From contig JAKSYS010000780.1 in the NCBI GenBank assembly GCA_022925895.1, forward strand, positions 1 to 25,913: a stretch of 25,913 nucleotides of DNA, written 5' to 3'. Position 1 is the stretch's first letter. Every line of letters starts with the position of its first letter. The notes below the pieces were generated by a model. The model worked only from the letters and a program-made list of their open reading frames with translations. It searched no databases and was not told the DNA's origin. Shown piece after piece: positions 3,591-25,913 of the stretch. Position numbers and translations under genes: made by a program. The DNA is from Fragilaria crotonensis (lineage: Eukaryota > Bacillariophyta > Fragilariophyceae > Fragilariales > Fragilariaceae).

Positions 3591-6500
3591 ATGGCATCGG
3601 ATCTTCACGACGGTGATGATCTCGCCATCATGGAGACGGATGCATTTGACTTCGGGTTAGATCACAACGAGCCTGCTCCTGTTGTGAAACGAAAGGACGC
3701 GTACGAAGATATCATGGGGATCGGGGAAGGTGAGGGTGGGAATAGGGCACTTTCGAATCGGCTAGTTGCCTTTCGGGAGTGGTTAGATCTCGAAGCCGAG
3801 GTGGCGATTCATCCGTACCTCTGCGTGGTGAATGGCGAGGCGACGGATGGAACAAAGAATGCTCCCATGCTGTCGTACGGACCGCCACCTGGTGTCAACA
3901 CGGGAAGCATCAACCCTGCCGAGGGGCGCATCGGAGTGATTGATGGTGAGGCAGATCAAGCCCTTTACGATCGATCCATGGGCTGTCAAGTTCGCGCTAC
4001 CAAAGAAATTAAGAAAGACGATGTCCTTCTTACAATGCCTCGTTCAGCAATGGTGACTCCGGATTTAGTGGCTTCAAGTGATGCCGGTAGGGCAGTCCTA
4101 GCATGTATCGAACCCTCACAGAACGGCGCCCCCGTTCATTATTGGGATGCATTCGAAAATACAGCGTCACTAGAATCGAATATTCAGGAAAAAATAAGTC
4201 TTAGCAACGGCACCCAGCTCTTGGTCAAAATTTTGCAGGAACGTAAGAAAGCGGAGACAGCTGAAGGGAAATCGCTGCAAGCGTTGGATGACGGCATTCG
4301 CCAATCCGGTGGCCTTCTGGGCACTGGAAGAAACAAAATACAGCTTCCATATACTTTGGCGCCCTGGGGTAAGATTTCGACGCGAGCGCCGATCCTGGCG
4401 TTCTTAATTCACCAGCGGTTCTCTGACTGCTTGAGGCCAGAGGTTTTGGTACCGACGCCGATATTACTGTGGAGTTGGAAGACTGCAGAAGTGTCCTATC
4501 AACTGCAGAGAGAATACAGGTCCCTGCAGGCTCGCCGACAACCTTTGCCCCGTACGCACGCATTCTTCCGTCGGCTGTCCCTTTGCCCCTTTGCTGGAAA
4601 CGTAACGAGCTTGCGCTTTTTTCTCAGTGTGTACCTGGGGTCGTACCACTTCAGGAGGTTGCGGGAATGACACTGTTATTGGCTTCAGAGTTCATCGCAC
4701 TTGTTGAGGCTGGGATTCTGCATCGTTTTCCGAGCGTTTTTCCGAGGGGGCTTATTACTTGGGAGCGGTGGGTGTGGGCAGCTTCGGTGTACACATCTCG
4801 AGCACTGCCCTCGTCCACTTATTTGGACGATAAAAATAATGCTGTTGCGAATGCATCACCCGATCCACTTTGGTTCCAGTCAGATCCCGCCGTATGGGCC
4901 GAACTTGGCGTTATGATCCCCTTTCTCGACATGCTAAATCATGAAGCTGAGTCGTCGCAAGTGGTGTGGGAGCCGCCGTCAGCCTCGAAGGGAGAAGATG
5001 GAACCTTGAGTCTCCCGCGTGCTGTGTCTCACAAGCGAGTGAAGAAGGGGGCCGAGCTGTATTGCAACTATGGACCAAATCTGAGCAATCAGCACCTCAT
5101 TCTTCAGTACGGATTCGGCCTTATCAATAACTCCTCAGATGTTGTTAGATTGGGGTGGAGCCTGGGTGATTCTGTTGGCAATGTGAAAACTCCTGAAAAT
5201 TATTCGCTTCCATTTAGGGACGAGGACCCAGAGGACAAAGGTGTCACCGCTAACGAAAGCGGTGATGGTGATCAAACTAGTCCTGAGACCCCAAAACTCG
5301 GTGAAAGTGAATTGGTGTTCGATTCTACAGAGCCGAGTGATATCAATGACTGGTGGACGGAAGAGCGCCTTTCGTTTCTCAGCCGGCAGGCTCTTTTGGG
5401 TGAGAGTATCATGAACAGTCTCACTTCTGGTAAGAAAATGCTCACTGCAGCATTCAACGACGGTTCGTATCACCCGCACCTCCTTGCGGCGTCGGTGGTC
5501 GCGACCATGGATGATGCACGAGTGATGGCTCTTCATTCGCTCTGGAGCGCAGATCCTGAAAACAGGTCGACAAGCGTTGCCATAACGAAGACTCACCAAA
5601 ATGTGCTGCGCGCTTATCTTGCATTCCATTTTGAAAGTAAGTTGGAAAAACTACTGCAGAACTTGAACAGCGGGCTTAAAGGTCATTTTGAGGATGTCAA
5701 TATTTGGACCAAGTTATCGAATGGGGGGCTTGCGTATTCCAACCCAGAGGATAAAGCAGAAGGCTGGAACAAATTCTTTGAAGCAAAGGCTTACTTCACT
5801 TCGGCAGCTGTGGAAAAACACTTCTACCCTGTTTCTCCCGAGAGCTGCGTCTTAGCTTTCTATGATGGTCAAATTCGCGCGTTGCAAACATCGATCGACG
5901 GGTTAGCAACCATGGAGAAATTCAGGTCCGGGGTCTTGCGTCAATTGGAAGACCTTGGCTTTGAGATCCTACCCAACGACGCGCTCCCTGCGGCCGAAAT
6001 GGCTGCTATTACAACAGCGTCTGCTGGCAAGGCTGAAGACAATGACAGCATTGGCAAGAATGAAGATGAGCCAAATGGTACAAGCAAGGAGAAGAGCAAG
6101 TCGAAAAGTCGTCGTCGTAACCGCAAACAACGAACTTACGCAGGCGAGGGCAAGGGTGGACCCCCAGAAAGTAGCGATGGACGTCCCGCTATCAAGCTCC
6201 ACATCGGCAATCTTGCATATTGCACTCTAGCTTCTGACTTGTTCGACTATTTTGCGTCCATTTATGGCCGAGAGTGTCTTGGAATGTCATATCCCAACTG
6301 AACGAGAAAGCGGCCGCTCAAGAGGATTCGGTTTTGTGACGATGCCGGAAGCCTCGTCGCTTCAAGCGTTACGACCAGGAACGAAGCACGAAGTCCACGG
6401 GAGAATTCTCAAGATTGCCGAGAGTAGCTCCTCTGGGTCTGCTAACAGAAACAGGGGACCTAGTATTAACACGATCGTCGTCAATGATCGTTGTGCACGA

Positions 6501-7311
6501 TGCGGCTACCGACCACGATACTGTGTCTGTTCCGTGCCAGATATCCCGGCTTTCAATGGAGCAGCCAGTCGTTTTCCATACCAAGACAACATAAGAGGGC
6601 CTGACTTGGATCATCGGGGAAGGGGTGGACCCGATTTCGATAACTACGGCGGTGGCAGTTATCGTAGAGAGCGAGATCGTGGTAGGGATTCATACAGTCC
6701 GAGTCCAGGACGTCACGGCAGCGGCAGCAGAGGCGGTCGTGACTGGGACCATGATTGGCATGGACGCGCCTACGACCGATCTCGTCGAAGTCGTTCTCCT
6801 AGCTACAGCCGTGACATGGACCCTGATCGTGATAGAAGTAGACGACGTTCTGGAGAGAGAGAGCACGGCCGAGACAGAGACAGGGATCGCCGAGACAGGT
6901 CGCGAGAGCGAAGGCGGCCCCTCGACGACCGTCGATCATCGCGCTACAGTCGCAGCCGAAGTCGGAGTCCTCTCGGTGAACCTTCAGAACTCGGTCGGTC
7001 TTCCAGGCGAGATCGAGACAGAGATCGCGACGAAGAACGTCGGATCGCCGGTATGAAATCTGCCGAACCTGCATCTAACAACAAGGATATCAGTGACGCA
7101 GAAAGCGTGTCACCACCGCCACTCGGCGGTAGTTCTGAGAGGAAACGCGCCCGAGAAAGTCGAAGGAGGCCGTAGTCGTAGTCGCAGTCGCAGTCGGGAT
7201 AGGGAAAAGTGGGAAGAGCGCAGCAGCAAAAGGATGGAAAGAAGCGAGATCGTAGTCCGCACTAGTAAAGGCGTCACACAGCATAACCGCACAAGTATTC
7301 CATACAGATGA
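3591..7311 (+). CDS. SET-domain methyltransferase fused to RRM and RS domains
   Basis: A protein of about 1,240 residues is spread over frames joined at about 4369-4442, 6270-6280 and 7160-7170. After an acidic N-terminus comes a SET domain of the Rubisco LSMT/SETD3/SETD6 type: CQVRATKEIKKDDVLLTMPR (residues ~130-150), FAPYARILPS, PFLDMLNHEAES (~445-455, the SET NH motif) and GAELYCNYGPN (~487-497), then a helical region in the place of the Rubis-subs-bind domain. A basic linker leads to an RRM (RNP2 LHIGNL at ~870, RNP1 RGFGFV at ~912), a Cys cluster CARCGYRPRYCVC (~967) and a long RS/RD-rich tail (~1020-1215). SET proteins of this type methylate protein lysine or histidine; RRM-RS proteins act in splicing. 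The SET C-lobe, the linker and the RRM start share one open frame (4427-6301), so the fusion is direct. Substrate unknown. It converges on the dioxygenase gene, with stops about 40 bp apart. Confidence 0.75.
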
Positions 7312-7349: not shown

Positions 7350-8710
7350 CTAATACAATACCGATAATCCTTCCATTCGATATCTGGAGTTCAGCTCGTC
7401 CTGGCTCACATAACATCCAGAAACGGCTCGAGGACAATCGTTGAGGGTTTGAAAACTATATCGACCATGTAAGCACCTCTGTTGATCACGGAACACTGCT
7501 GTGTGAGATCTCATACAAGTAATAATTAATGTATGCCAATCGACTCACCTGATTTGCAAGCACTATTGTATCGCCAGGGCGCAGCTTCGACCAGCCGTGT
7601 GCTGTCCCTTCCAAGGATATTGTCCCACGTTGCATGCGCACTCGCAAGTTCTTCGTAGAACGAATCGTTGTCGAAAAGAGCGTCACTACGTGATGGGAGA
7701 TCGGAAGACGATCCAAGTCGTTATGTCGTATTCCACTGACAACACCTCGCCGAGTCTCAATCACCGGTCCTGATGCTTCTAGGTACCACCCTATTTCCTC
7801 ATCAATGCATTGGTATTTTCTGACAGTATTGACCAACATGTCGAAAGCGCGGGGATCTTCCGTACGGAGCTGTTCTGCAGCAGCAAATCCATCGGCGTAG
7901 ACACTGTCGCCTCCAATATCTGCCGGCGTGATCATTGTGAAAATTTGTAAACCTGGCGGGACAGCATGTATGTCAAATCTGTGTGAAGGGCAAACTGCCC
8001 TGCCCGTAGGCTGAATCAGCTGTGCTGGTTCCTTCTCCCTGCACTTCGGAACTCGTGAACCAGACACTTCCGTAAAGCGTGCGAAGGGGACCGTCTGTGC
8101 CATTAGGAAGCACAATATCAGTCCCCCCATGTCTGTATCGTTCTAGCAACGAAGCGGAAGCGATATTCTTTTTGGATGATCCTGATACAGCAGATGCCAA
8201 AGCAGCGATTCCCGCTCCGCCATCGTCAATTGGCGTATCAGTAATAAGGAGAATACCGTACGAATGCAGAACTTTCAGAGCCATGGGTATGCCGTGTCCA
8301 TGGATGAGTCGGTCAAAAGGCATTGATAAGGCCTCCGAGTTTCTTAGATCCGACTCGGTTAATCCTGTCCACAGTTCCCTGGACATCACTGGTTTCTGCC
8401 AATTTTTTGCAGTTTGATGCATCCACACTGTGGAGTACGTTGCTGACACACCGTCTGCCCAGTCAACGACATAATTATTTCCATCTAGTCTTGAAGACTT
8501 CACTTGATATCTCTGTCGTACCTGATGATTCTGAACTGGCTTTCCAGTGTCTTTGTCATGAGCAATATCCGCTCGTTGCCGAGTCGCTTGGTCGAAATTT
8601 CGTTCGTCGCTATCTCGAAGGAATTGAAGCGGGAGAGTCCTTTCTATCTGCGTCGAGAAGCTACGAACTGAAGCCATAGAGCTCATCCTTGAGCACAAAG
8701 ACAGCATCAT
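7350..8710 (-). CDS. Gamma-butyrobetaine/trimethyllysine dioxygenase-like Fe(II)/2-oxoglutarate oxygenase
   Basis: The family hydroxylates trimethyllysine or gamma-butyrobetaine in carnitine synthesis using Fe(II) and 2-oxoglutarate. The ATG at 8710 opens a Ser/Arg-rich, acid-poor leader (MMLSLCSRMSSMASVRSF) that looks like a mitochondrial presequence. An N-terminal small domain follows (VVDWADGVSATYSTVWMHQ) without the family's zinc-binding cysteines. The catalytic domain shows PLRTLYGSVWF, the iron motif HTD at 7985-7977, PPGLQIFTMI, GGDSVYADGFAAAEQLR, IRHNDLDRLP and RPGDTIVLANQ. A 70-bp intron (7479-7548, GTGAGT donor, AACAG acceptor) separates the last exon, 7478-7350, which carries LHGR (third iron ligand) and a GCYVSQDELNSRYR end. 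Frame breaks flank the HxD motif at about 7986-7990 and 7964-7970. Which of the two substrates is used cannot be decided. The mitochondrial location is inferred. Confidence 0.75.
7479..7548 (-). other. Intron in the dioxygenase gene
   Basis: On the minus strand the sequence reads CAG|GTGAGT at 7548 and ATCAACAG|AGG at 7479. Removing it (phase 0, 70 bp) joins LANQ to the conserved R-x-LHGR segment, which has an open frame of 43 codons including the TAG at 7352-7350. The fit to the family C-terminus makes this intron well supported. Confidence 0.8.
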
Positions 8711-8886
8711 GTGGTCTCAGATACAGGTGTTGATGTTTTGGCAGACGTGAGATGCGACGGTTTCAATTTCATATCAATGTTTCATCTCAATTTGTGTTCG
8801 TGTTCCGATTGGTGATTGCTCCGCGGCCAGATATCGACGATTGACATTTTGACATGCTGGCATCTGCTGGCATGCGAAAACCACCG

Positions 8887-12022: not shown

Positions 12023-14084
12023 TCAAGCGTGATCAGTAATATCGTATAAGATGAGACCAACCAAATGATCTCTCTTCTGTCCACCCGGGATAATCTTAGT
12101 ACATAGATCAGCGGGATTATCGTGTGTCGAGATGTGAGCGGTGATACATTCGCCCATCGCGACAGCCTCACGCACGGCGTGATAACACACAGAGTTTGAC
12201 TTTTTCTTCAATGTAGACTCTGGACGTTGTGTATTATGTATGACTGACATATTGTCACCGTAAATCATAGATGGACCGTCAATAGGTACACCCATCATTC
12301 GTAATTTGTACCGGAGTCCCCTCAAAGCTTCCATGCCGTGTTTCATCGCGACGAATTCGGCACCAAACACACTGGTTTCAATCGTTGCCTGCTTCTTCGA
12401 GTGCCAAATTATCGGCGACATGTTGAGGTATATTAGGAACCCAGTCCTCGAACGTCGAGTACGTTGATCATTCGCATGATCCGAATCGACAAATAGTCGA
12501 ATATCCACATCTTTGCCTCGTGGCGGTGGTGCATTAGGTGGGATTGCTTCCGTCACATTCCCATAAAACGATTTCCAGTCACATTCCTTGAAGGCTGAAC
12601 GATCGATGTCCGGATACGTCGGATCGAAGACAATCCTAGCATTATGCTTCTTTTCAAGGTGGTTGAACAAATGAAACACAGCTTCAAGGTGCCCGTCACG
12701 TGGCATGATCAGGTGCGACGCAAGTTCCGACACTTCCGTTATAATATCGACTCGGCCCAACTCGACGCACCAACGTAACACTCCGATCTGCGACTGATAA
12801 AACGAAGCCTGTTCAGACGATAGCTCTGGTGTCACGTCCAACTCGGGTGCATAATTCAGCGGGAACGGGCCGGATGATCGCTTTGCCCATTTACGTGTCG
12901 GAAAGTGTCTCGCGTGAAATGCCTTGACGTTAGCAACCGCGGCCTGGATGTACTTGCTAGAGCTCATGCCCCACGCAACCACTCCATTCTGTAACGTCAC
13001 CGGTCGCAACTTTGCCCCAAGATAATACTCTGGATCTCGCATCGACCCAGCCTTCGTTTTAAAGAAGTAGTCAATCTCCCTTAAGGCCTTGAGTCCGTCG
13101 TGATGGACAACCAGTATGTCATCCACATAGAGTAAACAGTAGGCATAGTAGCGGTAGTTATCCTCTTTCCGAACCTCTGGTTTTATCCACAAATCATGGT
13201 CCGCCTTGCACGGTTCCCATCCGAGGTGCCTCATACAATCCGCGAGATGGTTCCTGAATGACGCGCCCGCGGATTTTAGTCCGTAGAGCGCGCGGACGAT
13301 GATTGCACGCTTACCAGCGTCCTGTCCAAATTCTGGCCCCAATTTGCACCAAATCCTTTCCCCAACTGGTGCGGTGAGATATGCATTTTCAATATCTGCG
13401 GTTTTGACTTCTAAGTCATTCAGCGCAGCAAGGGTCAGTGCAATCCGTACCGATTCACGAGATACGACGCTGGCATATGTCACTGTTGCCGACGGCGGTA
13501 CCGTCATGTGCCCGCCTGCAACAAGTCGTGCCTTGCGCTGGAAATCTTCCATCTTCACATCAAATACTAGGTGGCAACGCATCTCTTGAAACGTCGGCGG
13601 CGGGTCCTTCCCTTCCTCCAGGATTTCAAACGCCACCCGGACCTTTGACATTTCCTTACGAACCGCATCTTGCCAGAGTGTGTTTCCATTCTCTCTGTCG
13701 ATACGGATGCAATCTTCATACGTCTTGGGAACTTCGATCCCAAACTTGTGTGTTCGTTTGTGGTAGCGCTTGTTCACCGCGGCAATGATACGGTTCCGAC
13801 GCCTAAGGGTATAGGGAACCCACCATGCAAACGCAGCCTCAGAGTCAATTCCATGGGCCACCGCATATTCGGCAACTTCGATTGGATTCGATTCCTTCAC
13901 GTCGGCTAAACGCTCCCACGAGGTCGTACCATCCTTCCACTCTATACATAAGCGCCAGCCCTTTGTCGTCTGTCGCATTCGACGATTCGAACCCCGAGTG
14001 ATCCACATATCGGACTTCGCAATCGCAGAAGCATCTTTCCGATGGTCGACGATGCCCGATAGCAGTAGATATTGATTGCCCTCG
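12023..14084 (-). CDS. Retrotransposon reverse transcriptase and RNase H segment
   Basis: This segment copies element RNA into DNA in the virus-like particle. The RT_2 (copia) reverse transcriptase runs from about 13600 to 12900, with FDVKMEDFQRKARLVAGGH, ADIENAYLTAPVGERIW (first catalytic Asp) and LLYVDDILVVHHD (the YVDD box). RNase H follows: RLFVDSDHANDQRTRRSRTG, ETSVFGAEFVAMKHG and YGDNMSVIH supply the acidic residues, and HDNPADLCTKIIPGG is the typical copia C-terminus before the stop at 12023. The frame is open from at least the ATG at 14008 and reads naturally up to a frame break near 14083. The segment is full length and its catalytic residues are present. Confidence 0.9.
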
Positions 14085-14953
14085 AGTCACATTGCGAGTA
14101 CATGTTCTGCGCGATGATGTTGGCAGCAACCTCAGTCTTTTCTCCGTGCGGAAATTCTACCTCGTACGTACGTGTATCGAGGATCGGGTTGGCATTCGCC
14201 TTCCCACGGAGCGTTCCATCCGAGGACCGCTTGCGACCGCGAACGGTGGCCGTCATCATTTTGTCTCCTATCGGCAGGGATACTTGAGCTCCGACATATT
14301 GATCATACGTATCGTCGTCGGCCTCATCAATATCCGGAACAAAACGAAGTCCATCGTCATCTTCGCCGTCGCTGTATGGTTCATATATCGGCGTTCCGAG
14401 ATCCTCGAGCTCCGGGTCATTTACGAAGTCCTCATATTTGAACGCGTCACCAAGAGCCTTGTTCACGGACTCGGTAAACTTTTCCCGCTCCCTCTTCATC
14501 GTCTCATCTGACATTTCGTCAGGAGTTAATGACCTGACAGTAGAGCGATAAACCACTTGCCCGTTTGCCTTGAGTATCTTCCTCGTCATCGCTGGTCCGA
14601 TATCGATTGCTGGGCCAAGGTCTCTACCTAGCACCATTTTGTCGTCAGGGTACGTGGCCACTGTGTCGCGAAACATCACCCATTCATACCAACTGAAGAG
14701 CGCCAGTGCGGAGATGTCGGCCGTGTTACCCATAACGATAGTTTCCGGCACTTGCCCATCAAGTTTGTAAATGTCGTGGGCAGTGAGGGAACGCACGTAC
14801 GCTTCCCTCTCCAGGCAGTGATCCCACAATCGCTTCGGTGACCTTGAGCGAACCATCTGGCGTCCGACGCCTTTCTTCAGCTCACGTATCGCGGATTCAG
14901 CCGAGTTCGACCAGGGAGAGTACGGTTCAGTCTGTTTTACCCTTGCGCCAGCC
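14085..14953 (-). CDS. Retrotransposon integrase C-terminal half and linker
   Basis: This frame continues the integrase after a break at a GA repeat near 14952-14960. SPWSNSAESAIRELKKGVG carries the third catalytic acidic residue (Glu) of the DDE triad. Then comes the family-typical LFSWYEWVMFRD, DDKMVLGRDLGPAIDIG and STVRSLTPDE, an acidic stretch (DGEDDDGLRFVPDIDEADDD), and a small beta-rich module (QVSLPIGDKMMTATVRGRKR). The frame is lost at about 14083, where a single missing base would restore the continuation into the reverse transcriptase. Confidence 0.8.
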
Positions 14954-16193
14954 TCTCTCTGCACTTCCGACGGAAGTTACCCAGCAGTTGTTCCTTGGAG
15001 TTATCCATGATCAGCGTGTTTGGGACCCCCTCACGTTGGAAGAGTAATGAAAGGCCCTCGTGCGCTTCGCTTTTCTTACGCATGGGATACGCTCGGGTCC
15101 AACCATCCGGAGTTGCGAAGATCTGAGCATACTTGTTATTCCTCGAGCTTACGGTGTTCGACTCGAGGGTGTCCGTAAAACAGTCGATCGGGAGCCTCCG
15201 ATATCGCAATTGTCGGTCGTTTGTCCTGAACCTCCGAGTTAGGCTCGGGTGGAGCAATGTTCGAATACCGCGTTGCGTTGTCGCCTTCACGGTTCGACGT
15301 GCCGCGTTCATGTCAATTCCCCAATTCCTCGCAATCTGTTCAGCATCGAATTGCCTCCCAGGTGAAGAAGCTCTCACGGTCCGTATTGCAATTCCTGATG
15401 TGAGAGTTCCTGATAATGCGTCATCGTCAAACACAACAGAAATGCCATAGAGTGATATCCCAACGCCGTCGAGTTCGGAGTTAACGCGTCTTCCCATCAA
15501 AGATGTGTTGGACACTACACAGAGGCGGTTGGCCAGTGGGAGGGGTTCTACCCCAATTCGGTCCCCTGTGTCCGATACATATTTGAGGAGAGCGTCTTCC
15601 TGTTCGGCATAAACGGGATCGTGCGGGTCGTAGTCGGGTGCCTCGCTCGTGAGAATAATATGGGGCAGTTGATCATATTCCTCGCGTGTCGGTTTGCGGG
15701 TTGGAAACGACGAGGCTACCCCGATGATCGATAATGGTATGACGTACGGTGCGTCCGATTGTTCGATCGGAATTACCAACGAATGCGTAAGCTCAGTAGG
15801 TTGGTCAGTCAAGAAACGTGGAACATCGTTAACCTTGACGTCATTCAGTCGGAGCTGCATCGTAGAGAGTAAATTGTGTGATAAGTCGGGGATATAAATA
15901 GCCTGATTCACAATTAAGATGACGGTTCGCCCTGTCACAGCGTCATCGTATGCGAGTGCTCCGGAGACCGTTCGTAGGTCTTTAGCTACCGGACCATTTG
16001 GGTCGTACCCCGAGACGTTTATCGGTCGATCATAATCGTGCACTAATAAGGCATTACGGCCGATCGCACATTGATCGGCGTGAGAGTCAAGGTCAGTTCG
16101 TGACTCCATCACCGACGTGTCGATCACACTAAAGGTCCGAAGGGTCGAAACGTTGCGCGTGCAGTCATGGCACGTACAACTGTGGCCTGCGTG
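14937..16193 (-). CDS. Retrotransposon protease and integrase core
   Basis: After an in-frame TGA at 16194-16196 the frame runs through a Cys/His cluster (HAGHSCTCHDC), then a retropepsin-like protease with LDSHADQCAIG in place of the usual D-(S/T)-G box and YIPDLSHNLLS, as in copia proteases. The integrase follows, with RNWGIDMNAARRTVKATTQ, LPIDCFTDT (first Asp) and LIMDNSKEQLL (second Asp). I see no HHCC zinc module ahead of the catalytic core. The segment ends in the wrong frame just after FRRKCRE, at a GA-rich slippage site. The same frame is open upstream of the TGA (16197 to about 16380), so this may be one Pol frame with a premature stop. Confidence 0.85.
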   Translation of the reverse strand, partial: HAGHSCTCHDCTRNVSTLRTFSVIDTSVMESRTDLDSHADQCAIGRNALLVHDYDRPINVSGYDPNGPVAKDLRTVSGALAYDDAVTGRTVILIVNQAIYIPDLSHNLLSTMQLRLNDVKVNDVPRFLTDQPTELTHSLVIPIEQSDAPYVIPLSIIGVASSFPTRKPTREEYDQLPHIILTSEAPDYDPHDPVYAEQEDALLKYVSDTGDRIGVEPLPLANRLCVVSNTSLMGRRVNSELDGVGISLYGISVVFDDDALSGTLTSGIAIRTVRASSPGRQFDAEQIARNWGIDMNAARRTVKATTQRGIRTLLHPSLTRRFRTNDRQLRYRRLPIDCFTDTLESNTVSSRNNKYAQIFATPDGWTRAYPMRKKSEAHEGLSLLFQREGVPNTLIMDNSKEQLLGNFRRKCRERLAQG

Positions 16194-16332
16194 TCACTTT
16201 GACTTAGTCGTCTGCCGTGTCAGGGACGCATTGGTACGATTCGTCCCGGACGCAGACTTGATAGAACGGGGTTGCGTCTCATTGGACGACTCGGTTGCCA
16301 CCGATGCATCGTCGGCGTTGATAAGATCGGTC

Positions 16333-16593
16333 TTAGTGATTTGCTTGGTGAGCACCAGACTTAGACTTCGAGTCCTTGCCAGTCTTGCTATCCTTCGCAC
16401 CGGGAGTATGGCCACGCTTCTTACGTTTCTCAGCCAAGTCCCTTTTCTGGGCGGAGGTCAAGGCAGCATATTCCGCTTTTGTGTAGTAGCGGTCTTCAGC
16501 TTCGTCGCGCTTGCGTTTGTTACCGCTGTGGACCTTGACCTCCGAAATGTTCACGTTGCTTGGGACTACCTTTCGTCTTCGATGCCGTCTGCT
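16333..16593 (-). CDS. Retrotransposon Gag C-terminal segment (second frame)
   Basis: This frame begins where gag loses its sense, at about 16590. It encodes a highly basic tail (GNKRKRDEAEDRYYTKAEY, LAEKRKKRGHTPG, then SKTGKDSKSKSG) that suits an RNA-binding nucleocapsid. It lies one frame forward of gag, so either a +1 translational shift or a small sequence change joins them. It ends at a TAA at 16333, overlapping the Pol frame. Confidence 0.6.
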   Translation of the reverse strand, partial: SRRHRRRKVVPSNVNISEVKVHSGNKRKRDEAEDRYYTKAEYAALTSAQKRDLAEKRKKRGHTPGAKDSKTGKDSKSKSGAHQANH

Positions 16594-17650
16594 TGATGAA
16601 GTCCTGATATAGGGTAACACAAGCATCGAAATCGTTTCGAAGAGCTGCGTCAGACATGATTCGTGTCTTTACAGAATCGTACTTGTCAGTGCGAATGCCG
16701 TCCATCAAGTATCGAACTTTAGAACGGGCGTCAATCCCACTGTAACCGTATTCAACAAGCCCCTCGAGAATCGAGTGCTGCTGTTTATGGACATTGATAT
16801 ATTTTTCAAAGTCCCATCTGCGCTGTTCGCCATTGTAGACGGTCGATTGGAGCTTCTGCTCGGCCTGGGTTGCCATGTTATCGACATTATTGGGCCCCAA
16901 GTAATGAGTCCACAATGCAAGGTACGCCATCCTGCCGTCACGAGTTCGTTGAGCGTCTTTCACGTACGTCCAGCACGAGTTCTCGCGAGTGATTCGAGCA
17001 ATGATCTCCCAGACTTTCTGCCGGTTGACAAGATATGTCGGGTCGGGGTTGCGTACCCCCGCCGCGGTAATCCTGAAGTGAGGGGCGCGAGCGATCATCT
17101 CGTCCTGGACCGTCGCGTACCCACCTTCGGGCTCAACCGTAGGGACCGCCTCATCTTTACGGACGACGTATGCCAAAGGGATCATTTTATCACCGAGGTA
17201 GGAGCGTAGGTATTCGTGAATCGCTTCCATTGTTTTAGGCCAATCCTTGGCGTTAATCACAGGAAGATCGTCGGATGCCTTCCATGTGTCTTCGTAATCA
17301 CGTAGCTCACGAATCGAACGAATATTTTCGAGCGTCACATCCGCTGGTGTAACGGTCCTACCAATGCGGACTTGATGCCTAAGGTAGAAGGCCGCGAGCT
17401 TCAAATTCGTTTCGGCTCTAGCGTTTACCTGAATGCCAGGGTTGGGGACAGCGTTCCCAGCTGCGTTGACTTGTCCAGGGATGACACCACCTGGGCGACG
17501 AATCAACTTGGCTAGGTTCGAGATCTCGTCGTCAGACAAGAGTCTGATTTCTTCCAGGGAGTCAATTCCTTGCTCGTCAGTGATGGCCTGAGCGGCAGCA
17601 TCAAGGAAGCCAATGCGGACGAGAGCGGTGCGGACAGCGGCAGGTTCCAT
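16520..17650 (-). CDS. Retrotransposon Gag
   Basis: 376 codons starting at the ATG at 17650 (MEPAAVRTALVRIGFLDAAA). Gag forms the particle shell. The N-terminal part looks helical and SAM-like (ALVRIGFLDAAAQAITDEQG), followed by a capsid-like region (DYEDTWKASDDLPVINAKDW, AIHEYLRSYLGDKMIPLAYV, TYVKDAQRTRDGRMAYLALW). The last ~24 residues after KQTASKTKG do not look like family sequence. The natural continuation lies in the next frame, which suggests that the reading should change frame at about 16590. It is the first gene of the element, preceded by a ~525-bp leader. Confidence 0.85.
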   Translation of the reverse strand: MEPAAVRTALVRIGFLDAAAQAITDEQGIDSLEEIRLLSDDEISNLAKLIRRPGGVIPGQVNAAGNAVPNPGIQVNARAETNLKLAAFYLRHQVRIGRTVTPADVTLENIRSIRELRDYEDTWKASDDLPVINAKDWPKTMEAIHEYLRSYLGDKMIPLAYVVRKDEAVPTVEPEGGYATVQDEMIARAPHFRITAAGVRNPDPTYLVNRQKVWEIIARITRENSCWTYVKDAQRTRDGRMAYLALWTHYLGPNNVDNMATQAEQKLQSTVYNGEQRRWDFEKYINVHKQQHSILEGLVEYGYSGIDARSKVRYLMDGIRTDKYDSVKTRIMSDAALRNDFDACVTLYQDFIKQTASKTKGSPKQREHFGGQGPQR

Positions 17651-18161
17651 GGTTGGAGTGAATTACCAGTTTCGATAACAATCTTGTGGTATCAGATCCA
17701 CGTTTCGCTCTTGCTACTTTTACGTGGGTAGCCCACGGATGGGACGGTATCCGCGTCGGTTAGATGTTACTCCCGGTTAAGATAAGTAATTGTGTCACTT
17801 AATACGTATATGTCGTACATTTGGTATCTATTTCCAAAATGTCGATATCGGTTTACCCGGATGGATCGGGAAGGAAATAGAGCGTCCTCTGAATCCTCTA
17901 TAATGCAGTATATCCACGGTAGGATCCGTTGGATGGATATACGTATCCTAGGCCAATGTACCATCCACATTTAAGGTGCACTAGGATAAGGCAGTTCAAC
18001 GCATGCCCAGGCACGCAACTGTTTCATCATGGTCATGACTCATGAATCCGGCATGATGACGGCTGCCGACGGCCGTCGTTGATCAACTGTTTAACCCATT
18101 TGCTAATGGTTCATTCCAGACGTATAAGCAAAAGGTCCGACGCGACCAATGTGAGCTATTT
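17651..18161 (-). promoter_or_regulatory. Untranslated leader of the retrotransposon
   Basis: Between the 5' LTR and gag there is no open frame of note. The leader holds several inverted repeats: TAGGAT/ATCCTA (17930-17960 area), an imperfect ATCCA-CGG/CCGTTGGAT stem, and a CG-rich GGCTGCCGACGGCCGTCG block near 18060-18078. Leaders of LTR elements commonly carry packaging and dimerisation signals; that role here is inference. Confidence 0.4.
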
Positions 18162-18370: not shown

Positions 18371-21096
18371 ATGATGGATTGGGTTCGAAAACGGGGAAAC
18401 AGACCAATATTCAATCGAGCGACTAAGAGGACTGTACGCAGAATTGCTTGTGGTCGTGAACATTGCTGATAACGCAAATCTAGGGCGACAACGAGCTGAC
18501 ACGCAACCTGGACAGTCACCCTTTCGGCGACACACGACCATCCCAACGCACGAGGGCGACGATGTACACGCGTTGAAGTTAGTGACTGCATTCAAGCTGC
18601 TTGCGGCGACTCCAGCAGCTGGGAATGACAATGGTGCTGCGCAAGCTATGCGCTACGACTCAAGTGTTGCCACCATGGCTCATGCCCAGAAAATGGAAGA
18701 GCATTTAGTCCTGCTGATTCGATGCATAGGAGAAGTGGTTGCATACGGCGATAAACCAGGAACCTCATTCCGATCGGATCCCGTCTTCGAATACTTTTGC
18801 GAGAAGAGCATGCTCTCCTTGCTGGTGGCAATTGCGAAAGCCAAGCCATCCACCAACTCTGATCTTCATCCCATAGTATGGAGTCCTATTGTGAAATCCG
18901 AAGTACTGCGTGTGGTATCGGTACTCATTTCGAATGCTCAGGATGGTCCTTCGCTGTACTACCTTCTTTCTAACAACTTCGTCAATGAGTTGACAACATG
19001 CATGACGCCGCTAAGGCAGTGGACAGATAGTGCTCTCGAGATCATGACCCCTTTTACGTCGGATTACTAAAGAGTCTAATCCTTCAAGTGGCAGCTTCGC
19101 CGGCAGACATCTTTACTTTCCTGAAGACGGACCTAGCATTTCCTGTCTTGTCGTCAACAATCGAAGTTGCTACTTGTCCCAAGACCGACGCTACGTCTAG
19201 ATCAGCTTGCTTAAACCTGCTGGTGACTCTGCTAAAAATACCGCATCCACAAGTACGGAACTGGATTAACAACTCCGAGAATGAATTGCACATGATTTCG
19301 TCGTTTATCTGCACACGACTTATCGACCGCTACCGTCAAATGGCGAAGCTTCTTCTTGGCCCTGTCGTAGATCACATACGGTGCAACACTATGTTGATAC
19401 ACTTGACAGACGTCAGGAATCAAATTGAATTCATGAACCAATTGCTAGGATCTGGCATCCAAGCCTTCAATGTTTGTTTTTGTGAGGCGTTCTTGAGATC
19501 TGTGGTGGCCGTGCTGCTGGAGAGCATTGTCCCCCCAGAAAAGTCGCCAGTTTATTCCCGTGGGAGTTTCAGACATAGATGTGATTCCAGAACCAGAGGG
19601 TCTTGCACAACTGGCAGTTGTGTTTCTGGTTCACATGTGGTCAATATCCTACCAACCTTTCACTCGCATGTTAGCGGTGGCGCTTTTTCACAAAAACTCC
19701 ACAAATCTTTGGAAGATGGCAAAGTATAACGCTATCCAGCTCGACTACGCTCTCACCCGAGAGCTCAACTCCATCGCTCAAAGCATTGAAGGGAGTTACA
19801 TTGCAAATCCATACCGGCAAGAGATTTTGAACATATTGACTGGAGAAAGAGGGGAATGGAGATTCATTCCAGGCAGCATGCTCGTGGAGGGAGCTTTACT
19901 ATCGCCGGCGCTTGGTGGGAAGCTTCTGTCATCATTTGGCCTACTTCCTGCTTCCATGGATTCCGAGAAAACGACATATCCAACATCACCTTTGGAAGAG
20001 GCTCTCGCTTCGTTCATTCTACGGAAGCAAATAACCAAGTCTGCCGTTGCAACGATGGCTACCGAACGAGCGAGCGCAACTGCTCTCAGCTTATTTTCAC
20101 AGCTATTTGCCCTTCACGGTGCAACTGTTGCAGCAATCTTCCCCTTCGTCGCCACTCTTCAAGTCCATCGCCACAGCTCATGGGCGCTTCTGTGATCAAG
20201 CTCTAGAAGCGCGGAAGAAGACCGGTGTTTCAGACCTCTTCGTCGACTTTACACAGCTGGCCATTCGAAATCGCTACCCAAAGCTGTCGCGAGATCCAGC
20301 TAGCCGATTGCAGTATGGCTGCGTCTTGAACAGATTCGGCTTCCAAGCTTTGATGATGAATCCTTCCATTCTCGTTCGGAGATTCCGCACTGTTGGATCA
20401 AATGATGTTGAAGATTGTCGCTTTGCAATTCAAATGGCTTTGCAATTCCGTGCCACCTGTCGTGTAATCAAATCTATCACGGTGTTAAGTACTGACGGAA
20501 CGCCATCGTTTCCAACCACTGAGTGGGCCGATGATTTGTTGCTCACAATAGGCGACCTGCATGAGAAACCAGTCACTGGAACTGATTTGGACTTGCGAGG
20601 TCGCATGACCTTCAATTTCCACTCTGTCATCAAGAATCGTGCTCCTCCTCAGAAATCTCCGGGAAAGATTGGATCGGCTTCGGAATTGATTCTAAGATCC
20701 ACATCTCAGCTTGTCTTGGTACTGGACCCCACCGACATTTTCGTCGTACAACCAATGGGTGCTCGTCGCGATATCAATCGCGGGACGATTGTGTGTGGTG
20801 TGTCGCTTCGGAAGGTAATCGCCTTTGCGTCCGACGAGGAGTGGCTGCATATCGCCATTCGGAATATGGATGATGTAGGCTTTCTCATCAAGAATGGCAA
20901 TATGGCATTACATTTTGATACGGTTGGGACGTCGCTAATCGTCAAGCAGTATCTAGAACGGTCCCAAAATGTTCTGCGAGCGGAACTTAAGGATCAGATT
21001 GAGGCTCTGTTTCAGGAACGTTTCCTGCTTTCCAATGAGACTGACAATGATCTGGTGAAAGACCCTGGCAGCAAAAAGCAGGAGGTCCAGGTATAG
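18371..21096 (+). CDS. CLEC16A/GOP-1-like FPL-domain protein, frame interrupted
   Basis: About 900 residues over five frame segments. CLEC16A, fly Ema and worm GOP-1 act on endosome-lysosome membranes in vesicle maturation and autophagy/mitophagy. The probable start is ATG 18371 or 18374 (MDWVRKRGNRPIF). SIERLRGLYAELLVV and then the FPL domain follow: RCIGEVVAYGDKPG, DPVFEYFCEKSMLSLLVAI and GPSLYYLLSNNFVNELTT, the last closely matching the family's SLYYLLSNN block. Later parts show VASSPADIF-type helices, an EGLAQLAVVFLVHMWS segment and a C-terminal beta-rich region (LVLDPTDIFVVQPMGARRD, GVSLRKVIAFASDEEW) ending at 21096. Frame changes fall near 18410, 19045 (CCCCTTTT), 19535 (CCCCCC/AAAA) and 20095-20150. 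The retrotransposon sits just upstream. An inactive gene is possible, but the conservation between breaks argues for sequence error. Confidence 0.7.
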
Positions 21097-21186: not shown

Positions 21187-22206
21187 TCACTTTTTTGCGA
21201 CCATGGTGGCTATCATTGCTCCCACGGCAACCACAGCACCCAAAGGTAACCACGACGACGAAACTGAATAACGGTGAACAGGAACACTCAAGTCCACTGT
21301 CAAGAGATCTGGTAACTCCACGAGTATCTCCCTTTTCACCACCAGCACAATCTGCTTTACCAAAGCTTGCATCTGCGTGGAACGCTTCTCGACCGCTTCC
21401 AAGACTTCTTGATGACTCGCGACGGGCCCTTCGTGTCCTTCCATGATAACCTTGTTTGTAATGAGTGACAAACACAAAACTTTCATATCGCAATGATGCG
21501 CCGCCACGACTTCTGGGATAGTACTCATGCCCACCATGTCTCCCCCGAGCGATCTTAAGAAACGACATTCGGCTCGACTCTCGTACATGGGTCCAGAGAC
21601 AAAGCAATAGCACGATCCTTCAGGGCGAACAAAATCGAATCCCAGCTCCTTACTGGCTTGTCCGGCCGCGAGGCGTAAGGGTTCAAAATACGCATTGCTG
21701 GTGGCGGGGAATCGCGGACCCAATTCATCGTCATTCGGGCCGATGAGAGGATTCTTTCCTGCCAACTGAGGTATCGCCAAATGATCATCTACACAGCAAA
21801 CATCACCAACGTTGTATTCCGGATTTAATCCACCCGCGGCGTTCGTGACGATAAGAATTCTTACGGATAGACATCGCATGACGTAGACTGGCAAGACCAC
21901 AGTTTTCATATCGTGACCTTCATAGGAATGAAAGCGCCCCCGAAAGCAAATAGTTGGCACGCCACTCAACAGTCCAAAAACTAATTCGCCCTTGTGACCA
22001 GCGACTGTACATTTATTCGGAAAGCCTGGAATGGACCCGTAGTCGACACTCATCGTCAGCCCCTCGAGGGCTTGGGACAATTCCGAGAGTCCCGACCCAC
22101 AAATAATTCCAACTTGAGGCAACGGAAGCCCCGCAACACGGAGGCGATTATGCAGATAAGAGGCAGCAGCTCGATAAGGAACGAAGGAAGGATCCATGAC
22201 GAGCAT
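21187..22206 (-). CDS. Purine nucleoside phosphorylase with C-terminal membrane tail
   Basis: The enzyme cleaves inosine and guanosine with phosphate in purine salvage. It has 339 residues from the ATG at 22206; a second ATG lies three codons on, and the frame upstream has only a non-ATG start. Trimeric PNP motifs are in order: GIICGSGLSEL (phosphate loop), GRFHSYEGH (Arg and His of the phosphate/ribose site), TNAAGGLNPEYNVGD, GPMYESRAECRFLRSLG (the base-site Glu), VGMSTIPEVVAAHH and LITNKV (the base-site Asn). The catalytic frame is intact. After the fold ends, an extra tail SSSWLPLGAVVAVGAMIATM then VAKK forms one hydrophobic helix with a basic end, as in tail-anchored proteins. The usual enzyme is soluble. 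It converges on the CLEC16A-like gene (stops 90 bp apart) and diverges from the secreted-protein gene. Confidence 0.92.
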   Translation of the reverse strand: MLVMDPSFVPYRAAASYLHNRLRVAGLPLPQVGIICGSGLSELSQALEGLTMSVDYGSIPGFPNKCTVAGHKGELVFGLLSGVPTICFRGRFHSYEGHDMKTVVLPVYVMRCLSVRILIVTNAAGGLNPEYNVGDVCCVDDHLAIPQLAGKNPLIGPNDDELGPRFPATSNAYFEPLRLAAGQASKELGFDFVRPEGSCYCFVSGPMYESRAECRFLRSLGGDMVGMSTIPEVVAAHHCDMKVLCLSLITNKVIMEGHEGPVASHQEVLEAVEKRSTQMQALVKQIVLVVKREILVELPDLLTVDLSVPVHRYSVSSSWLPLGAVVAVGAMIATMVAKK

Positions 22207-22720
22207 GGTGATTAAATTCACTGCAAGTGGGACCAAACAGAAATATAACGATGAAGTTGTGTGAATGACATCATCGGAATTTACTCTCAGGCTGTATCAT
22301 ACATTATATATTACTTGCATCTAGTAGATGTGTGCGAATCTTCCGTGTTCTGAATTCGGTTTTGTCACAGCCTTGACTGAATGGTCTGTTTTGAAGGAAA
22401 CCAACTTGACAACTTTTCAGACATTGGAACCAACTTAAGCGGGCGACGGACGTGATCAACACGTACGTCAACCATTCATCGACCAGTGTAACTCGTCAGT
22501 ATCATTGGCTACTGGCAACACACGCTATTCAACCTCAACAACAACATATATATATCATACACACACATGACACATATCCCGCTCTCCGTATCGGTGTACT
22601 CGAGTATAGTATAACGCAACACAAGACTTGCAGTGAATTGGCTCCTTGCTTAGACGAAGTGCTCACCACGTTACCATCACCCGAAGATTCCCCGTCGCGG
22701 CTTTGAATGCTGAATTGAGC
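22207..22720. promoter_or_regulatory. Divergent promoter region
   Basis: About 510 bp lie between the ATGs of the phosphorylase (leftward) and the secreted protein (rightward), so both promoters must be here or overlap. A TATA-like run ACATATATATATCATAC lies at about 22544-22560, about 165 bp upstream of the rightward ATG. On the minus strand CACTTGCAG just before 22206 could be a splice acceptor of a 5' UTR intron. No other site is recognised. Confidence 0.35.
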
Positions 22721-23572: not shown

Positions 23573-25525
23573 TCACTTGGAACGGGTCTCCTTTTGAATC
23601 ACGGCATCCACTAGAAACATGGCCACAACGTACTCCTCATGATCAAAGTATCCATCTCGATCAATATCACTCAAGTTCCAAATTTGACGAAGCTGGTCTT
23701 TCCCAAGACCCGTTTTGACCAGCACCTCACGCGCCGTAGCCGTGTCAAGAAGCCTCCTTAGGACCCAACGATTCAAAGGTGCTCAACAAGCGATCAGCAG
23801 AATCTTGCAGCGCCCTGCGTCGAACAACAACGTGAGTTAGTTTCTTGTTTTGTGACCTGACGTATTTCCCAGTCCAAACAACTTACCAATAGTTATCAGT
23901 GTCGGCCTCGTCAAAACCGAATGGATTTGAGGCGTTGTCTGCTTTCTTGCCAAATTTGTCATTTCGGGTCGGTAGAGGAACGTTTGCGTTGCTTCCTGAA
24001 ATCGAGCTGGCAGCAAGCTTGGCTTTGAGAGTCGCCGGCGAATCCTTTTCACTGGGCAACAACTCCATAAGCTGAGGGATTTCATTGTTCAAGACACCAT
24101 CCAATTCCTCTATTTGTTTGGCAGAGAGCGTCGAGAACTCGGAGAATTTGACCTCCTTCAGCTTTTCCGAAAACATTTTGATATCGGGAAAGTCTCCGGA
24201 GCCAAATTGTATTTCTTCAAAATGACGCGGAACACGCCTGGGAGATCACTAATGAGTTTCTGCTGTTTCTTTTCCTTACCCATGAGAGATGGCATTTGTG
24301 CCTTGAGGTGTCCAATGATATACGCAAGCGTCTTGACCTTGCGGATGCGCTTCACTAACTCGTTGATCTTGCGGACAGCCGATTGGCGAGGCAAGATCGC
24401 TAGGTCCTTCATAAGGTCTCTTTCTTCATCCTCGAAGAGTGCTGCATTATCCATATTCTGAAGAGGTTGCTGCCAGAACGAGCCGACGTAGACACGAGCG
24501 ACCCTGGAGATGTCATTGTCTTGCCGAGCGACCACAAGAGGGCGCCGTAGACTTAAAGAAAACGATGTCAGTGATTGGCCGAACCAAGAGCATGGTTCTC
24601 GAGTCATGATGCACAACTTACCTCTCATGAGCTGTTGGCGATCAATCTGATCTGCCTTGTTCAAAATGCATCGGATCTTGTCTTCGTGCCCCTTGAGAAC
24701 ATCAATCGCCCCCTTAAGCTCATCCGAAATATCAAGTTTGTGAGCGTCGAAGAGCAAGATAATCAAATCGGCTCGCTCGGCGAACCATGCCACCACCTTG
24801 GTGAAGTCATAGCCACGATTAGTTCGCTGTTTTTCTCCCGATAAGATACCAGGTGTGTCAATGAGAGTGATGGAGCGCAAGACGCTGGAAGGCAGCTGGG
24901 AACCCTCGAATCGACTCAGGAAGGAAACACCAAAACGTTCAAGACCGCGAAAGGGCAAATCTGGGTGTACTGAAAGGGCGTTTCCAGGAATGGTGCGTTC
25001 CTCGCCCATTGATCAGCACTGCATGTGGTGGTGAGAAAAATCGAATCATCATGTGATGTCAAGAAAAGGGCAATTGTCGCCAATCTAGACCTACCAGTGA
25101 ATCGATCTGTAGGGCTCGGGTCCAATTCTTTGGCCGGGGAAGTCTTGTCCAAGGAGATAGCGAATAAAACTAGTCTTTCCGACACTGTATTGCCCCACGA
25201 GAAGCACCTGCGGTTTAGCTGTGTGGAGAGTTGAGAGTATTGGACACGATTCCGGGTCATACAAAAAACAAAATGATCGAAATACGACAAGTACCCACTT
25301 CACTAACTCACCATCAAACTCCACATCAGTCAGAAGCGGACTTTCGAAGAAATAGTCGTAACGGTAACGCTTTTCGACCGGCAAAACTGCCTTGCGGTAG
25401 ATCGCCTTGAGCTTGGCGGATATCAAGGCTGTTCGGTCAGCACTGTCACCGGGAATAGAACCAGCGTCCATCGAAACATTTCTCTTGCTTACTTCAGGAG
25501 CATTCATCCAACTTTGGTCTGCCAT
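23573..25525 (-). CDS. EHD-type dynamin-related ATPase with C-terminal EH domain
   Basis: EHD proteins bind ATP, form oligomers on membranes and drive endocytic recycling. From ATG 25525 (MADQSWMNAPEVS) comes the helical YRYDYFFESPLLTDVEF region, then the dynamin-like G domain: VLLVGQYSVGKTSFIRYLLG (P-loop), IGPEP (switch), SITLIDTPGILSGEKQR (G3), FDAHKLDISDEL and ILNKADQIDRQQLMR (G4). The family helices follow: RVYVGSFWQQPL, AILPRQSAVRKINELVKRIR and LAYIIGHLKAQMPSLMGK. Then come NPFGFDEADTDNYW and a C-terminal EH domain (REVLVKTGL, LRQIWNLSDIDRDGYFDHEE with an EF-hand loop, YVVAMFLVD). Four introns are placed with confidence. Frame breaks occur near 25110, 25003, 24490, 24190, 23755 and 23585. 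The true stop may lie beyond 23573. All nucleotide-binding motifs are present. Confidence 0.85.
23815..23886 (-). other. EHD gene intron 4
   Basis: Minus strand TATTG|GTAAGT at 23886 and CGACGCAG|GGCG at 23815, 72 bp, with a CTAACTCAC branch-like site. Splicing joins DNYW to ALQDSADRLLSTFESLG, in frame and matching the lead into the EH domain. Confidence 0.75.
24552..24621 (-). other. EHD gene intron 3
   Basis: Minus strand ATGAGAG|GTAAGT at 24621 and TTTCTTTAAG|TC at 24552, 70 bp. Splicing yields QQLMR-VYGALLWSLGK, the expected EHD sequence. Unspliced, the frame stays open but inserts unrelated residues. Confidence 0.85.
25019..25094 (-). other. EHD gene intron 2
   Basis: Minus strand TTCACTG|GTAGGT at 25094 and CACATGCAG|TG at 25019, 76 bp with a pyrimidine-rich stretch. 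It links the TDRFT block to the segment preceding EERTIPGNAL. A small frame break sits just after the acceptor (near 25003). Confidence 0.65.
25219..25311 (-). other. EHD gene intron 1
   Basis: Minus strand TTTGATG|GTGAGT at 25311 and CCACACAG|CTAAACCG at 25219, 93 bp. Removing it joins TDVEFD to AKPQVLLVGQYS, exactly the EHD pattern. It is also open when unspliced. Confidence 0.85.
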
Positions 25526-25913
25526 GATAACTTCTTAGATGAGATGCTTGGATCGATTAGTTCCAAAGGCCTTTGGTGGAATGGCAGTCGTAGAGCCGTT
25601 GAATGTTGAAGTCACAATGGTGGCAGGGACAACAACTACCGGTACCAGAGATGCTGGCAACGGAGGTATCTTGCTTACATCTACAGTTACGTAGGAGCAA
25701 TTAATAGCGTCCGTTGAATTGCAGATCTGGACACCTCCCGTGCTCCAGTGGAGTATGGGTACAATGCTACTGTATGAACGTACTCTACAACTAGTAGATC
25801 ATACAGTATTTCGAAGGACCGAGCAATTGACGTTGCCTTATTACTTGTACTCCACACTGAACAGACATGTACTCTCAGTACTCCAGTATGCTCGTAGTGG
25901 TACGGTATAATAA
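25526..25913. other. Upstream region of the EHD gene
   Basis: No gene is recognised. This is the EHD promoter side, rich in GTAC and TACTGTA/TACAGTA words, and it includes the inverted repeat at 25768-25808. No TATA box is clear. Confidence 0.4.
25768..25808. repeat. 10-bp perfect inverted repeat, 21-bp spacer
   Basis: TACTGTATGA at 25768-25777 and TCATACAGTA at 25799-25808. It lies about 245 bp upstream of the EHD start codon. This could be a binding site for a dimer, or a remnant of the GTAC/TACTGTA repeat words seen elsewhere in the window. Confidence 0.35.

Follow-up and report, generated by a model that had tools for sequence, protein, structure and literature searches.

The window analysed here is a 25,913-nucleotide stretch of Fragilaria crotonensis DNA. 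It raises the question of whether one gene on the + strand, at about 3591-7311, joins a SET methyltransferase domain at its N-terminal end to an RRM and a C-terminal RS/RD tail. Along the strand, the domain order is SET, C-terminal region, acidic-then-basic linker, RRM, CxxCx6CxC motif and RS/RD tail. The explanation we consider probable is a single nuclear gene for a protein of about 1,200 residues, an LSMT/SETD-class methyltransferase with an hnRNP-type RRM, a cysteine motif and an RS/RD tail that would be targeted to RNA complexes. The breaks in its reading frame would then most likely be errors.

The predicted methyltransferase domain

The N-terminal part (3591-4448, + strand) is read in frame 0 from the ATG at 3591 and holds the SET N-lobe, with MGCQVRATKEI at 3978-4010. 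This frame or exon ends somewhere around 4430-4450. The remainder of the SET domain (4544-5116, + strand) lies in frame 2, with the motifs FAPYARILP (4544-4570), IPFLDMLNHE (4916-4945) and YCNYGPNLSNQHLILQYGF (5060-5116). It belongs to the ORF 4427-6301, which is open over 624 codons, whereas none of 1000 dinucleotide-preserving shuffles was open in frame 2 over that length. Behind the SET domain follows a region (5117-5971, + strand) ending in RQLEDLGFEIL (5939-5971), which, judged by position alone, would correspond to the substrate-binding domain of LSMT. The SET C-lobe, the basic linker and KLHIGNL that had been reported for this ORF are all present, while the post-SET region assigned to it is without a profile match.

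Profile searches gave modest results. With Pfam, the N-lobe ORF and the frame-2 ORF had no matches up to E 1 when searched separately. Joined over the first frame break, they matched the SET profile over its whole length (1-105 of 105) with 16.7 bits, below the cut-off of 22.4. Neither post-SET nor Rubis-subs-bind was matched in the joined protein up to E 10 in Pfam, a search in which the HMMER filters drop most matches above 0.1. No NCBIfam family was found on the SET part.

Comparison with solved structures supports a SET domain. The frame-2 ORF by itself matches PAP7 in the PDB at E 2.7e-4. With phmmer, Rubisco LSMT is matched by the joined SET protein at a whole-sequence E of 4.1e-6; the match consists of two collinear stretches, which reach 0.27 and 0.17 when taken singly. 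PAP7/pTAC14 is matched in a single C-lobe stretch (residues 411-495), which has the best stretch score, with a whole-sequence E of 3.6e-4. The SETD3 chains follow weakly at 0.07-0.13. At the N-lobe, residues 131-168 of the joined protein match positions 33-70 of Rubisco LSMT (2h21). Further on, NHE stands opposite NHS of 2h21, and NYGP...QYGF opposite QYDL...DYGF, so that the NH and both tyrosines in NYGP/QYGF, residues we take to be catalytic in LSMT, are retained. The aligned N-lobe segment reads GCQVRATKEI; here the second glycine of GxG, presumably the AdoMet motif of the SET N-lobe, is replaced by Q. Therefore, activity could be reduced or lost. Judged from these alignments, this is a divergent SET domain whose nearest solved structures belong to the LSMT/SETD class. 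The class assignment made by the sequence-only reading thus stands in its collinearity with Rubisco LSMT, with a likeness weaker than was implied, as the sub-threshold Pfam score indicates. Two AlphaFold models, made without an alignment, had a mean pLDDT of 34.9 and 30.2 and were unusable.

The predicted RNA-binding and C-terminal regions

A single hnRNP-like RRM lies at 6194-6431 (+ strand), with RNP2 as KLHIGNL (6194-6214) and RNP1 as RGFGFV (6321-6338). The reading frame breaks between these motifs at about 6272, and a full RRM carrying both is obtained only when this break is bridged. For Pfam RRM_1, the first half gives no match and the second half alone 15.4 bits. Joined, the halves score 25.8 or 27.2 bits depending on the choice of join, above the cut-off of 20.7 and over positions 2-53 of 70 in the profile. 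According to phmmer against the PDB, the joined RRM matches hnRNP A2/B1 with a whole-sequence E of 3.5e-13 and the second half alone with 1.1e-7. These values sum both RRMs of the target, the best single stretch being 2e-5 for the joined form and 0.012 for the half. The hnRNP A2/B1 match covers residues 15-88 of the joined RRM protein (P0001), rows for hnRNP A1 extend to 93, and the alignment holds two surplus residues at the 6272 break. Three NCBIfam families were found on the RRM part, all below their cut-offs. Once the halves are joined, the RRM is statistically real and, as a prediction from sequence, well supported.

After the RRM, the pattern CxxCx6CxC can be read in CARCGYRPRYCVC (6492-6530, + strand), which falls in no profile family. 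It may bind zinc, and we take it to resemble the start of DTW-domain proteins. The RS/RD-rich tail (6648-7175, + strand) runs in frame 0 until the stop codon at 7173-7175. The 134 residues that begin at 6648 comprise 33% R, 17% S and 15% D, and contain 22 RS/SR against 32 RD/DR/RE/ER dipeptides. That RGFGFV and this tail follow after a small frame break was correctly noted earlier, both lying in frame 0 past about 6272. The RS repeat continues as GRSRSRSRSRDREKWEERSSKR in frame 1 (7168-7311, + strand; stop 7309-7311). The proposed gene end at 7311 is indeed the stop of the frame in which the repeat continues, and reaching it takes a further break that had gone unnamed.

Frame breaks across the window

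The gene thus contains three breaks, at about 4430-4520, at 6272 and at 7165. The first (4427-4520, + strand) leads from frame 0 to frame 2 and may be either a sequence error or an intron, for which 4449-4519 (71 bases) was the candidate chosen from the SET alignment. There are 26 frame-keeping GT-AG introns of at least 20 bases that could account for it, and an intron at 4430-4520 is possible. In frame 2, the stretch 4449-4519 has a score of +0.18 to +0.20 per codon, compared with about 0 in frames 0 and 1. Scoring as coding, it leans slightly towards an error over an intron. Its donor, GTACCG, is unlike the two donors marked by eye in the EHD gene of the window (GTAGGT and GTAAGT). At 6272, 72 GT-AG introns of at least 20 bases would give an open frame to 7172, one of which preserves LHIGNL, LECHIP and RGFGFV together. 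This one, at 6241-6274 (34 bases), was rejected, as it deletes LFDYFASIYGRE, the first RRM helix between the motifs. An error in the sequence is the best reading of the small break within the RRM. The third break is seen in the RS repeat itself, which shifts from frame 0 to frame 1 near 7165.

Similar breaks are found in other genes of the window. A TauD/TfdA-family dioxygenase gene (7486-8716, - strand) adjoins the SET-RRM gene and has two breaks at or beside CCC runs. By its motifs, we take it to be trimethyllysine- or butyrobetaine-dioxygenase-like. GSLP, LHTDLTYMLS and PPGLQIF lie in three different frames within about 60 bases, HTD and PPG presumably being conserved motifs of the family. 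Its second ORF alone scores 38 bits and the first has no match; joined they reach 64.6 bits, part of which stems from simply adding the first ORF. The gene for an EHD-family dynamin-like ATPase (23883-25534, - strand) has likely introns, some stretches resembling normal ones, and a break directly after GPEP, adjoining a P-loop region that matches EHD4. The TDRF that we would expect after GPEP is found in another frame. An FPL-domain gene (18375-21096), presumably CLEC16A-like, is divided among four overlapping ORFs, with shifts of frame from one to the next, one of them within MTPF/PFYVG. Apart from these genes, a retrotransposon (12023-17662, - strand), which we take to be of the copia type, has RVT_2 in 12023-14083 and is spread over several frames.

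Since the TauD-family and EHD genes are broken inside conserved motifs just as the SET-RRM gene is, the breaks in the latter are probably for the most part base-call indels, not biology. With several genes of this sequence interrupted by frame breaks, automatic gene models will come out divided or cut short. A purine nucleoside phosphorylase-like gene (21187-22296, - strand; PNP_UDP_1, 143.6 bits) has its domain in one unbroken ORF, with a hydrophobic stretch behind it. The ORF 925-1422 ends in what appears to be the start of a RING segment, CTICLGDYEDGEELVKPL, with no Pfam match in that piece. Rfam, at the gathering threshold, and ARAGORN found nothing across the window.

Continuity between the two halves

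Whether there is one gene or two is decided in the linker (5972-6193, + strand), which is acidic and then basic (KSKSKSRRRNRKQR at 6092-6133) and holds an in-frame ATG at 5999. Frame 2 is directly seen to be free of stops from the SET C-lobe through to RNP2. The absence of stops is only moderately telling, as the 79-codon linker was open in 13 of 1000 shuffles, frame 0 is likewise stop-free over 5960-6190, and the longest open runs in the non-coding stretches of the window reach 43-157 codons.

Codon usage learned from the PNP, EHD, TauD-family and FPL genes alone gives frame 2 a score of +0.21 per codon over 5960-6190, compared with -0.05 for frame 0 and -0.55 for frame 1. The linker score was the same whether or not the background included off-frame codons of the SET-RRM gene, and frames 0 and 1 then ranged from -0.05 to -0.07 and from -0.55 to -0.57. 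Frame 2 was on top in all 11 overlapping 90-base segments from 5880 to 6269. The preference fades in 6091-6190, with +0.08 for frame 2 against +0.04 for frame 0. As a control, 230-base segments were taken from stretches without a recognised gene; 64 of their 1182 frames were stop-free and one of these also scored as high as the linker, in segments that overlap and that are assumed to be gene-free. In a leave-one-out check, the in-frame scores of eight out of nine coding stretches lay between +0.11 and +0.25. For the RRM stretch the value was 0.001, which does not set it apart from another of its frames. The RS tail had its higher score in frame 1 instead of the frame in which it is read, so that in these parts the method is limited by biased composition. 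Together, the unbroken frame 2 and the codon usage over the linker make a single fused gene likelier than two, and the proposed fusion order is supported. Given the indel errors nearby, an unseen indel in the linker could still mask a gene boundary.

Such a boundary would separate two genes on the same strand, a SETD/LSMT-like one ending at about 5990 and an RRM-RS one starting at about the ATG 5999, with an error in the linker fusing their frames. Each protein would be ordinary by itself, the ATG stands just past the SET-protein region, and frame breaks are common in the window. The stop-free runs of linker length in its non-coding stretches and the weak codon preference in 6091-6190 would also fit. 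However, frame 2 scores best on either side of the ATG, with +0.32 over 5960-5998 and +0.29 over 5999-6090. Moreover, the roughly 220 bases from the last SET-protein residues to RNP2 would be tight for a terminator and a promoter. We therefore regard two genes as rather unlikely, while taking the possibility seriously.

The breaks could also be genuine, in two ways. They could be true mutations in a pseudogene, a fusion that formerly worked, as three breaks in one gene and the degenerate GxG (GCQ) would suggest. However, similar breaks in other conserved genes point to a fault of the sequence and not of this gene, and the SET parts have normal codon usage, which makes decay improbable. Alternatively, the fusion could be real and 6272 a programmed +1 frameshift or another regulated site, yielding a short SET-only and a long SET-RRM-RS form. 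The break does lie within the RRM, and without a shift the frame soon ends (6301), which would give a SET protein that lacks a working RRM. However, no recognisable slippery sequence is seen by eye at GGCCGAGAGTG, and errors have to be invoked anyway for the two further breaks of the gene and for several in other genes. Regulated shifting is accordingly very improbable. The single gene with sequencing errors is the reading followed below.

Possible role

For such a fused protein, its activity as an enzyme, its location in the nucleus, its binding of RNA and its substrate are all predictions. The RRM and the RS tail would most likely bind RNA and other RS proteins. This binding would bring the enzyme together at pre-mRNA or at complexes engaged in splicing, and its SET domain would there methylate a nearby protein side chain, on lysine or histidine. 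The targeting to RNA or spliceosomes suggested by the sequence-only reading is a plausible prediction. More tentatively, and on balance doubtful, an LSMT/SETD-class enzyme would be a permanent part of the splicing machinery, anchored through the RRM and RS region that it carries itself, and would methylate proteins bound to RNA or splicing factors.

SETD1A offers a precedent for the presence in speckles of a SET enzyme that carries an RRM. According to PMC10671326, its RRM binds RNA in vitro and the protein co-localises with SC-35 speckles. The precedent is mixed, since SETD1B is reported to be excluded from speckles and to have yielded no measurable RNA, and the RRM of yeast Set1 to bind RNA differently (PMC10671326). 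If the fusion is real, it would link a class of non-histone protein methyltransferases directly to RNA processing, with RNA-bound and RS proteins as the candidate substrate pool.

Comparison with known proteins

Scans for relatives covered viruses and prokaryotes and have no bearing on algae. The SET ORF had 2 pattern matches in viral contigs and 8 in genome contigs, and the SET C-lobe core 12 and 54, respectively. The RRM ORF had 19 in viral contigs and the second half of the RRM with the cysteine motif 10. None of these matches was confirmed by tblastn. No fusion of an LSMT-class SET domain with an RRM is described in the titles and abstract beginnings listed from the open PMC literature, a weak negative given its partial coverage.

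To our knowledge, the known members of the LSMT/SETD class act on plastid enzymes, on actin and on other substrates outside splicing, and they are not usually joined to splicing-type domains. The joining was therefore fairly called unusual as far as this class is concerned. With Rubisco LSMT, SETD3 and SETD6, the protein appears to share the split SET domain with a long insert, and it shares the NH and YGF segments (2h21, 1mlv; SETD3 weakly). It differs from them in its weak similarity, in having no Rubis-subs-bind match and in its C-terminal RRM-RS extension. PAP7/pTAC14, which shares the single C-lobe match, is a subunit of the plastid RNA polymerase, and we know of no RRM-RS region in it. 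For the alga Nannochloropsis oceanica, a homologue of LSMT has been reported (PMC11012178).

Another SET fusion in a diatom is the SET-JmjC protein of Phaeodactylum tricornutum, whose partner domain is JmjC and not an RRM. PMC3145265 reports this protein with a PCR on cDNA given as data not shown. SR and hnRNP A/B proteins share the RRM sequence and the RS/RD tail. In contrast to them, the RRM here is not N-terminal and stands behind a methyltransferase, and RD/DR/RE/ER dipeptides outnumber RS/SR.

The combination of an RRM with a SET domain is in itself known from Set1/SETD1A (PMC10671326), which qualifies the unusual character claimed for the joining. Set1/SETD1A (KMT2F) thus shares with this protein a SET enzyme bearing an RRM, whereas the order here is SET followed by RRM and the SET domain matches another class, that of LSMT and PAP7. 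In Set1/SETD1A, the RRM is N-terminal to a C-terminal KMT2-type SET domain and no RS tail is known.
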